This document shows positions 17,207 to 20,373 of a stretch of DNA of 64,000 nucleotides, piece after piece; position 1 is the first letter of the stretch; every line of letters starts with the position of its first letter. This DNA comes from Hydrogenophaga pseudoflava NBRC 102511 (lineage in GTDB: Bacteria; Pseudomonadota; Gammaproteobacteria; Burkholderiales; Burkholderiaceae_C): contig NZ_BCWQ01000009.1 in assembly GCF_001592285.1 (NCBI RefSeq), positions 62,001-126,000 of the forward strand, read 5' to 3'. A program made the translations under genes and the position numbers. A model generated the notes under the pieces. The model had not been told where the DNA came from, did not search any database, and saw only the letters and a list, made by a program, of their open reading frames with translations.

Positions 17207-18499
17207 ATGTCCGCAGACGCTTCCCAGCCTTCCGGCGAGGCCCCGGCCTCGGCCCAGACGCCGCACCCGCGCCACATCCGGCTCACCTCGCACTCGGGCG
17301 GTTTCGGTGCCCTGCCGATCGTCTGGGGCGCGGCCACGGCGCGCGAGCGCGGCCCGGTGGTGGGCACCACCACCAACCGCGCGCACCGCAACGTCATCGG
17401 CACGCACAGCGGCAGCTACAGCGTCTACCGTGCGCTGGCGGTGGCGGCCGGCGCGCTCAAGCGCGAGCACAAGGCCGACCTGACCAACACCGCGCCCACC
17501 GACGTGATCGGCCCCTACCCGCAGTGGGCCGATCCGACCAAGATCGTCAGCCTGGACCCCTGGGGCGCCGAGGTGGCCGACGTGTACGCGCAGGAGCTGG
17601 CCGCGGGCTACGACATCCGCCCGACCATTGCCGTGACCAAGGCCCATGTGCTGCTGCCCGAAGTGATCGACGCCGTGCAGAAGGGGCGTCTGAAGCCGGA
17701 TGGCCAGCTGCTGACCGCGGGCGGTGCGGCAGTGGTGACCAAGGTGGCGGTCGAGCCGGTGTGGTACCTGCCGGGCGTGGCGAAGCGCTTCGGCTGCAGC
17801 GAGGCGGATTTGCGCCGCGTGCTGTTCGAAGAAACCGGCGGCATGTACCCGGAGCTGGTCACGCGCTCCGACCTCGAAGTCTTCCTGCCGCCGATTGGCG
17901 GGCAGACGCTCTACATCTTCGGCCACCCACGCGACCTGGCCAATCCCGCCGTCACGCTGACCGCGCGCGTGCACGACGAGTGCAATGGATCGGATGTGTT
18001 CGGCTCCGACATCTGCACCTGCCGGCCTTACCTGACGCACGCCATCGAAGAATGCATCCAGGGCGCGCAGCGCGGCGGCGTGGGCCTGGTGGCCTATTCG
18101 CGCAAGGAGGGCCGGGCGCTGGGCGAGGTGACCAAGTTCCTCGTGTACAACGCGCGCAAGCGCCAGGTGGGCGGCGACACGGCCGACCAGTACTTCGCGC
18201 GCACCGAGTGCGTGGCCGGCGTGCAGGACATGCGCTTCCAGGAGCTCATGCCCGACGTGCTGCACTGGCTGGGCATCACCAAGATCCACCGGCTGGTGTC
18301 GATGAGCAACATGAAGTACGACGCCATCACCGGCTCGGGCATCGAGGTGGGCGAGCGCGTCAACATCCCGGACGAGCTGATCCCCGCCGACGCGCGCGTG
18401 GAGATGGACGCCAAGATGGCGGCCGGCTACTTCACGCCGGGTGTGGTGCCCGACGCCGAGGAGCTGAAGAAGGCCAAGGGCCGGGGACTGGGGGCATGA
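17207..18499 (+). CDS. URC1: URC1-type GTP cyclohydrolase II homologue (uracil catabolism)
   Basis: A 430-residue protein with a GTP cyclohydrolase II domain in its C-terminal half. Zinc ligands Cys259, Cys270 and Cys272 keep the C-x10-C-x-C spacing of RibA, and SRKEGRALG and the Asp-x-Arg in VQDMRFQE match RibA catalytic elements. The long N-terminal extension (about 1-230) is absent from RibA but typical of URC1. Its position directly before URC4 and upp (ATGA overlap with URC4) identifies the URC cluster described in yeasts and some bacteria, where URC1 and URC4 are needed to use uracil as nitrogen source. The exact reaction is not established; riboflavin synthesis is unlikely. Confidence 0.85.
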   Translation: MSADASQPSGEAPASAQTPHPRHIRLTSHSGGFGALPIVWGAATARERGPVVGTTTNRAHRNVIGTHSGSYSVYRALAVAAGALKREHKADLTNTAPTDVIGPYPQWADPTKIVSLDPWGAEVADVYAQELAAGYDIRPTIAVTKAHVLLPEVIDAVQKGRLKPDGQLLTAGGAAVVTKVAVEPVWYLPGVAKRFGCSEADLRRVLFEETGGMYPELVTRSDLEVFLPPIGGQTLYIFGHPRDLANPAVTLTARVHDECNGSDVFGSDICTCRPYLTHAIEECIQGAQRGGVGLVAYSRKEGRALGEVTKFLVYNARKRQVGGDTADQYFARTECVAGVQDMRFQELMPDVLHWLGITKIHRLVSMSNMKYDAITGSGIEVGERVNIPDELIPADARVEMDAKMAAGYFTPGVVPDAEELKKAKGRGLGA

Positions 18500-19707
18500 G
18501 CGCCGCCCGCCTGCTGCGGTCGACGACGGCCGTCCGCACCCGCGCGCGCCAGCTGCTGGCCCGCGCGCGTGAAGGCGCCTCCGAGTACTTTGTGGTGAGC
18601 GGCACTGCGCTGGCCGGCGCTGCGCGCACCGTGGCCCAACTCACGCGCGAGCGCTACCCCGACGGCCGCATCCCGTACCACAGCCGCTGGCGCCATTTCG
18701 AGGCCGGTGGCGTGGACCGGCGTGCCCTGCTGGACGCCGCGCTGGGCGACGTGGACGCGGCCACGCGGGCGCGTGCGCAGATCGATCTGGTGGTGGTGAG
18801 CGTGCTGCTGGACGCGGGCGCGGGCGCCGACTGGTCGTACCGGGAAGCCGCCAGCGGCCAGCGCTTCGCGCGCTCCGAAGGCCTGGGCGTGGCGAGCTTC
18901 CATGCCTTCCTGGCCGGCCTGTTCTCCAGCGACCCGCAGCGGCCGCTGCGGGTGGACGCGGCCGGTCTGAGCGCCGTGACGGCCGACCGGCTGGCCACCG
19001 CCTTCCAGGTGGGCGGTGGCAACCCGCTGGTGGGACTGGAGGGGCGCGCCGCGCTGTTGCGCCGGCTGGGCGAGGCGCTGGCCGCGCAGCCGGCGGTGTT
19101 CGGTGCCCAGGGCCGGCCCGGTGGCCTGTTCGATGCACTGACCGCGCAGGGCGGTGGCGCGGTGGCGGCGCACGACATCCTGGTGCTGCTGCTGGACACG
19201 CTGTCCGGCATCTGGCCAGCGCAGAACACCATCGATGGCGAACCGCTGGGCGACTGCTGGCGCCACCCGGCCGTGGTGGGCGAAGGGCTGACCGCGGGCT
19301 GGATGCCCTTCCACAAACTGTCTCAGTGGCTGACCTACTCGCTGCTCGAACCCTTTGAATGGGCGGGCGTTCGCGTGACCGGTCTGGATGCCCTGACGGG
19401 GCTGCCCGAATACCGCAACGGCGGCCTGCTGATCGACGCTGGCGTGCTGCGCCCGCTGCCGCCCGACTGGGCCACGCGCGACTGGCAGGCGGGCGATACC
19501 TTCATCGTCGAATGGCGCGCGCTCACCGTGGCGCTGCTGGACGAACTGGCGCCGCTGGTGCGCGCCGAGCTGGATCTGAGCGAGCAGCAGATGCCCCTGG
19601 CCTGCGTGCTCGAAGGCGGCACCTGGGCCGCCGGCCGCCTGCTCGCGCAGCGCCAGCGCGGTGGGCTGCCGCCGCTGAACATCGTCAGCGACGGCACGGT
19701 TTTCTGA
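18496..19707 (+). CDS. URC4: URC4/Urg3 family protein (DUF1688), uracil catabolism
   Basis: A 403-residue soluble protein of the DUF1688/URC4 family. Recognisable stretches are RYPDGRIPYHSRWRHFE (about 55-72), the SYREAASGQRF segment, DALTAQGG, and HKLSQWLTYSLLEPFEWAG with LTGLPEYRNGGLLID. No known catalytic motif can be named. In yeast URC4 is required, with URC1 and a uracil phosphoribosyltransferase, for breakdown of uracil by a route distinct from the reductive and Rut pathways; its reaction is unknown. The ATG at 18496 overlaps the URC1 stop (ATGA), so the two are translationally coupled, and upp follows 36 bp later. Confidence 0.85.
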   Translation: MSAARLLRSTTAVRTRARQLLARAREGASEYFVVSGTALAGAARTVAQLTRERYPDGRIPYHSRWRHFEAGGVDRRALLDAALGDVDAATRARAQIDLVVVSVLLDAGAGADWSYREAASGQRFARSEGLGVASFHAFLAGLFSSDPQRPLRVDAAGLSAVTADRLATAFQVGGGNPLVGLEGRAALLRRLGEALAAQPAVFGAQGRPGGLFDALTAQGGGAVAAHDILVLLLDTLSGIWPAQNTIDGEPLGDCWRHPAVVGEGLTAGWMPFHKLSQWLTYSLLEPFEWAGVRVTGLDALTGLPEYRNGGLLIDAGVLRPLPPDWATRDWQAGDTFIVEWRALTVALLDELAPLVRAELDLSEQQMPLACVLEGGTWAAGRLLAQRQRGGLPPLNIVSDGTVF

Positions 19708-19743
19708 CCCTTTCTTTCCATCACCACAACAAAGGCCTCCACC

Positions 19744-20373
19744 ATGAGCAACGTCCACGTCGTGAACCACCCGCTGGTGCAGCACAAGCTCACGCTCATG
19801 CGCAGCAAGACCGCCAGCACCAACAGCTTCCGTCGCCTGCTCAACGAGCTGTCCATGCTCATGACCTACGAGGTCACGCGCGACATGCCCATGCAGGACC
19901 TGGTGGTGGAAACGCCGCTGGAGACCATGACGGGTCAGGTCATCGACGGCAAGAAGCTGGTCTTCGTGTCCATCCTGCGCGCGGGCAACGGCATCCTGGA
20001 CGGCATGCTCAGCGTGGTGCCGGGTGCGCGCGTGGGCCACATCGGCCTGTACCGCGACCCCAAGACCCTGACCGCGGTGGAGTATTACTTCAAGATGCCG
20101 CCCGAGATGCACGAGCGCGACGCCATCGTGGTGGACCCGATGCTGGCCACCGGCCACTCCGCCATCGCCGCCATCGACCGCCTCAAGGAATGCAACCCGA
20201 AGTCCATCAAGTTCGTCTGCCTGCTGACCTGCCCGGAAGGCCTGGCCGCGATGGAGAAAGCCCACCCGGACGTGCCCATCTACACCGCGGCCATCGACCG
20301 CCAGCTCAACGATCACGGCTACATCCTGCCGGGCCTGGGCGACGCGGGCGACCGCATCTTCGGCACGCAGTGA
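19744..20373 (+). CDS. upp: uracil phosphoribosyltransferase
   Basis: A 209-residue UPRTase, the usual length, converting uracil and PRPP to UMP. The PRPP loop [12 protein letters not shown] (about 130-141) and the uracil-binding C-terminus [18 protein letters not shown] are intact. In most bacteria upp serves salvage beside uraA; here it follows URC1 and URC4, matching the URC cluster in which UPRT is part of the catabolic route. A strong ribosome-binding site is absent but the 36-bp gap (CACAACAAAGGCCTCC) includes AAAGG. It may serve both salvage and catabolism. Confidence 0.95.

Follow-up and report, generated by a model that had tools for sequence, protein, structure and literature searches.

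A URC uracil-catabolism operon in Hydrogenophaga pseudoflava and the probable relationship of URC4 to the Qng1 glycosidases

The window analysed here, a stretch of 64,000 nt from Hydrogenophaga pseudoflava NBRC 102511 (contig NZ_BCWQ01000009.1, positions 62,001 to 126,000), carries URC1, URC4 and upp as three closely spaced genes on the plus strand, with the ATG of URC4 overlapping the stop codon of URC1. Together they make up a bacterial operon for uracil catabolism of the URC type, which in itself is an ordinary example of a known pathway. Taken as a whole, the locus is best explained as a URC operon whose URC4 is a Qng1-like glycosidase that frees urea, a reading to which we give a probability of roughly 0.8. 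Within this reading, it is likely that URC4 (family DUF1688) represents a second branch of the Qng1 family, in which a conserved Glu stands in for the catalytic Asp and which acts as a urea-releasing (phospho)ribosylurea glycosidase.

Qng1 is known only from queuosine salvage. According to the available part of a yeast study (PMC7530994), uracil is converted to 3-hydroxypropionate and ribosylurea by URC1 and URC6 in uncharacterised steps, and ribosylurea is then degraded to urea by URC4. The primary substrate of Qng1 is given as queuosine-5'-monophosphate in the accessible text of PMC11592518. Each of the two enzymes would then break an N-glycosidic bond of a ribose or ribose phosphate, and on these grounds our proposal is that URC4 acts as a (phospho)ribosylurea N-glycosidase.

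Relationship between URC4 and Qng1

The URC4 product matched Pfam DUF1688 at 497 bits (cut-off 25) over profile positions 2-420 of 420. A preliminary description of this DNA had stated that URC4 has no recognised motif. This holds for its annotation, which is DUF1688, but not for its relationships, since both predicted fold and profile group it with Qng1. In the fold search, the predicted fold of URC4 matched the Qng1 fold, and the next matches were base-cutting DNA glycosylases. These helix-hairpin-helix enzymes (AGOG, endonuclease III) act on DNA and matched URC4 much more weakly. Qng1 itself (DUF2419) belongs to a Pfam family separate from DUF1688, and URC4 exceeds the solved Qng1 chains in length by roughly 60-90 residues.

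We compared a profile of 24 URC4 proteins with one of 13 actinobacterial Qng1 proteins. The URC4 alignment (A1) comprised the window protein together with sequences from 20 of the 26 DUF1688 loci and three of 13 plasmid hits; it omitted L002 (the window itself), L010, L012, L015, L016 and L017. The Qng1 set held 13 of 16 matched places, namely those over the cut-off, after the weak partial matches L137, L138 and L139 had been dropped; of the 396 genomes in the actinobacterial sample, 15 matched Pfam Q_salvage at E <= 0.001, and 12 did so over the cut-off. The comparison gave a probability of 96.3 (P = 1.9e-9) over 272 columns with 19% identity. Its score was 74.5; reversing the columns gave 21.7, 200 full shuffles scored 24.4 at most, and 100 block shuffles scored 43.1 at most, with probabilities up to 67.5. 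Single sequences gave fainter signals. Q_salvage was matched weakly by five of the 24 URC4 members (E <= 10, best E 0.055) and not by the window URC4. When ten members were rescanned, two matched at 12.5 and 12 bits, under the cut-off of 25: a fragment at L021 (residues 265-360, profile positions 150-250 of 285) and a protein at L042 (residues 274-362, positions 152-245).

The alignment covered 30 of the 35 nearly invariant Qng1 columns. Of these, L105, L188, G192, D253, K274, Q277, L283, T301, R341 and W377 are retained in URC4 and hardly vary there. The column of Qng1 K199 is K274 in every URC4 row, both in A1 (24/24) and in a second alignment, A2 (55/55), of the window protein with 54 of the 80 best genome-match loci. 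The column of Qng1 D231, which was located through the D231N chain 7ulc, holds not Asp but Glu (E305) in 24/24 and 55/55 rows. E305 would be the acidic catalytic residue, in the role of D231, and URC4 would cut the N-C1' bond. The predicted leaving group is urea, unlike that of the queuosine-5'-monophosphate N-glycosidase Qng1.

Conservation and layout of the operon

The genes of the operon and its two downstream neighbours are listed in Table 1. The order URC1-URC4-upp, which the preliminary description had proposed, was borne out by matches over the cut-offs to PRK07198, DUF1688 and TIGR01091 (274 bits for upp, cut-off 208) and by its conservation among relatives. We fetched 84 related loci (L041-L124), made up of four of 13 plasmid hits and the 80 top-ranking genome matches out of at least 586. 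This sample is biased toward close relatives, although Burkholderiales and Actinomycetes are both included. By tblastn, 83 of the 84 loci had URC1 upstream of URC4 at a distance of no more than 300 nt, and the only locus without it (L090) begins about 310 nt ahead of URC4. Similarly, upp lay within 400 nt downstream of URC4 in 78 of the 84. Among the other six, upp was 2.3-3.1 kb away in two (L122, L123) and gave no match in four (L061, L063, L081, L103), of which three end less than 300 nt from the URC4 match. These frequencies imply that the gene order is not due to chance. Among those 80 top genome matches (of at least 586), the closest loci were in Hydrogenophaga metagenome-assembled genomes, with URC4 identities of 90% and 79%. 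In Pseudoroseomonas, Gordonia and Azospirillum, plasmids carry copies whose annotation reads, in order, GTP cyclohydrolase II, URC4/urg3 family protein and upp.

Table 1. Genes of the URC operon and its downstream neighbours (window positions)
Feature	Position	Strand	Length	Identification
URC1	17207-18499	+	430 aa	Open reading frame; GTP-cyclohydrolase-II-like, predicted UTP cyclohydrolase
URC4 (DUF1688)	18496-19707	+	403 aa	Open reading frame; predicted N-glycosidase, Qng1 fold
upp, uracil phosphoribosyltransferase	19744-20373	+	209 aa	TIGR01091
HIT-domain protein	20415-20876	+		Pfam HIT, 85.9 bits; probable nucleotide hydrolase or transferase
Cytosine deaminase, PRK07572 family	20911-22200	+		PRK07572, 791.5 bits

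The constant company of URC1 and upp also bears on whether URC4 might be a true Qng1, a queuosine-type salvage glycosidase that merely happens to be located in the operon. The predicted fold would be the same in that case. Nevertheless, we give the idea hardly any credence, because URC4 keeps its neighbours in nearly all related loci, Asp is replaced by Glu in all rows of both alignments, and the two Q_salvage matches in the rescan stayed at half the cut-off or below. Furthermore, Q_salvage was found in none of 398 sampled genomes of the host's phylum, compared with 26 (the host included) for DUF1688. It was also found in none of the 12 genomes or records behind the related loci.

The run of plus-strand genes extends beyond upp to a HIT-domain protein and then a cytosine deaminase. 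A relative of the deaminase occurs in 23 of the 84 related loci. We rejected the HIT protein as a conserved part of the pathway; it was found in one of the 84, and there upstream of URC1. Further neighbours were counted from a crude gene call on 85 loci. These counts are probably low, as the URC4 family itself was recovered in just 52 of the 85, and the tblastn counts are better. A Bmp-type binding protein was called in 24 of the 85 loci (Pfam checked on one member). Such proteins are often part of nucleoside transporters. A member of the PNP_UDP_1 family lies downstream of URC4 in eight of the 85 (Pfam on the member at L064:11134-12090), which suggests that nucleosides also enter the pathway in those loci. 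TENA_THI-4 family proteins lie near the operon in nine of the 85 (Pfam on the member at L065:12654-13385), and their recurrence probably reflects shared gene order only.

Such neighbours raise the question of whether the operon serves mainly pyrimidine salvage rather than a degradation that yields nitrogen. Both upp and cytosine deaminase are salvage enzymes, and the Bmp-type proteins would suit this role. On the other hand, the host genome has a second upp (G000:C1:115081-115698), and we know of no salvage role for URC1 or URC4. In addition, the yeast URC genes are reported to be essential for the use of uracil, at least in the available part of PMC7530994. A mainly salvaging operon is thus very improbable, and we retain degradation as the favoured function.

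Upstream of URC1, a small protein is encoded on the minus strand (16755-17195, a 146 aa frame). Neither the whole frame nor its last 95 aa had a Pfam match; it shares 95% identity with the sequence immediately ahead of URC1 in L045, and was found in one of the 84 loci. At about 24.9-30.1 kb, on the plus strand, there are three mutually similar proteins, the middle one of which (25936-26832) matched Pfam SBP_bac_3, followed by two more genes and an ABC ATPase (27914-28654, BPD_transp_1; 29342-30073, ABC_tran). These amino-acid-type ABC genes were left out of the operon, as the run is common to only one of the 84 loci (L046). A general similarity to ABC ATPases was seen in 35 of the 84.

URC1, the proposed route and the host genome

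URC1 matched NCBIfam PRK07198 at 805 bits (cut-off 403). The preliminary description had credited it with the zinc spacing C-x10-C-x-C and with an N-terminal extension. The spacing is indeed present, starting at residue 259, and the cysteines line up with those of 2bz0 and 4i14. What was taken for an extension has its own entry in Pfam, the domain GTP_CH_N, which spans residues 24-210 of the translation analysed and precedes GTP_cyclohydro2. The solved chains 7eev_A and 7ej3, entered as 'GTP cyclohydrolase II', aligned with URC1 without gaps at 810 bits each (residues 11-429 and 14-429) and showed no difference from it in domain layout. We take these two structures to be the published UTP cyclohydrolase, the products of which are reportedly a three-carbon aldehyde acid and a phosphorylated ribosylurea. 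A paper on a UTP cyclohydrolase is cited in connection with URC in the literature excerpts available. The substrate of URC1 is therefore probably UTP, and not UMP, for which an assay had initially been suggested.

The family resemblance of URC1 to GTP cyclohydrolase II could also mean that it serves, additionally or wholly, as the riboflavin enzyme of the host, in which case the operon would not be purely catabolic. No RibA match over the cut-off was found in the host assembly. A RibB fusion protein of the host (G000:C1:519531-519971, L142) has a GTP-cyclohydrolase-II-like domain without any cysteine; of the two matches, URC1 alone retains the zinc motif. Yet URC1 belongs to a separate family and scored just 47.2 bits against the RibA profile TIGR00505, below its cut-off of 205.85, and its close solved homologue is, as stated, presumably a UTP cyclohydrolase. 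DUF1688 is patchy in the phylum and absent from the only other genome of the genus in the sample (G019), where riboflavin is presumably made in another way. Moreover, a ribA gene could have escaped the assembly, which consists of 43 contigs. We consider a riboflavin role quite improbable; it would be compatible with the favoured reading of URC4.

In the route that we propose, cytosine would be converted to uracil by the cytosine deaminase, uracil to UMP by upp, and UMP to UTP by ordinary kinases. URC1 would then open the uracil ring hydrolytically, giving a phosphorylated ribosylurea (urea on ribose phosphate) and a three-carbon fragment. URC4 would hydrolyse the N-glycosidic bond that joins urea to the ribose, releasing urea and ribose phosphate, as Qng1 does with queuosine-5'-monophosphate. 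Finally, urease would turn the urea into ammonia and CO2. The substrate of URC4 would thus carry a 5'-phosphate, possibly as a monophosphate, although a UTP cyclohydrolase may leave the triphosphate on the ribosylurea.

The host genome was searched for alternative routes, as the preliminary description had recommended for the rut and dihydropyrimidine pathways. RutA (best 51 bits, cut-off 498), PreA (48 bits, cut-off 335) and D-hydantoinase (63 bits, cut-off 393) were all below their curated cut-offs; the barbiturase route was not searched for. Urease alpha, the one subunit tested, was found at 969.5 bits (cut-off 680). This content fits a URC route that ends in urea and urease, without proving that the host needs the route. 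The assignment to the uracil pathway made in the preliminary description therefore stands, through gene content and order, urease alpha and the lack of the three alternative markers over their cut-offs, while two of its points were outdated or incomplete. In the sample of 398 genomes, DUF1688 was present in 26, RutA over the cut-off in 26, and both in three; we accordingly rejected mutual exclusion of URC and Rut. PreA was over the cut-off in one of the 25 other DUF1688 genomes, and 22 of the 26 had neither RutA nor PreA above the respective cut-off.

Several points weigh against the favoured reading of the operon and of URC4. Genomes with DUF1688 do not avoid RutA, as the three that carry it compare with 1.7 expected by chance. 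In S. pombe, deletion of urg1 gave wild-type growth with or without uracil, which the accessible part of the report does not describe as the sole nitrogen source (PMC2174524). The identity between the URC4 and Qng1 profiles is just 19%, and a search of PDB sequences by hmmsearch, based on the URC4 profile, gave no match even at E 10, so that the relationship could be seen only by fold search and profile-profile comparison. Besides the different acidic residue, Qng1-invariant positions, among others F71, F225, V230, P231, R235, E263 and L300 (L127 numbering), are lost in URC4, and the C-terminal Qng1 motif (P310, H312, R315, Y319) falls outside the alignment. The catalytic roles of Qng1 D231 and K199 are read from the existence of mutant PDB entries, and K274 and E305 are presumed to lie together in one pocket. 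A common fold is also no proof of a common reaction, and the activity of URC4 is a predicted one.

It is conceivable that URC4 acts on ribosylurea by other means, such as a lyase reaction, ring-opening removal of urea or attack on the ureido group. The available literature says just that URC4 degrades ribosylurea to urea, and with Glu at the place of Asp the mechanism may have shifted. As both fold and profile indicate an N-glycosidase family, and base-cutting DNA glycosylases rank next in fold, we regard these other chemistries as rather unlikely, and prefer a glycosidase.

Comparison with fungal systems and significance

In the available part of PMC2174524, the S. pombe genes urg1-urg3 are described as clustered and induced by uracil. 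They share with the window a URC1/urg1 gene of the GTP cyclohydrolase II family, a URC4/urg3 gene (DUF1688) and a gene similar to uracil phosphoribosyltransferase. The window differs from the URC systems of Lachancea kluyveri and S. pombe in having a tight run of genes followed by a cytosine deaminase. In addition, L. kluyveri uses urea amidolyase, according to the excerpt of PMC7530994, whereas the host here has a urease alpha gene (urea carboxylase was not searched for). A link between URC4 and Qng1 seems to be new, as the two were not mentioned together in open-access full texts, a search that leaves out most subscription journals.

URC4 is still a domain of unknown function in the version of Pfam consulted, although it is reported, in the portion of the literature available, to be essential to the yeast URC route. 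Its placement with Qng1 gives it one concrete reaction, one class of substrates and two candidate residues. If this placement is true, URC4 would supply the uncharacterised urea-freeing step of the URC pathway in both bacteria and fungi. Qng1 would gain a relative with a different job, and uracil catabolism would be tied to queuosine salvage by common descent.
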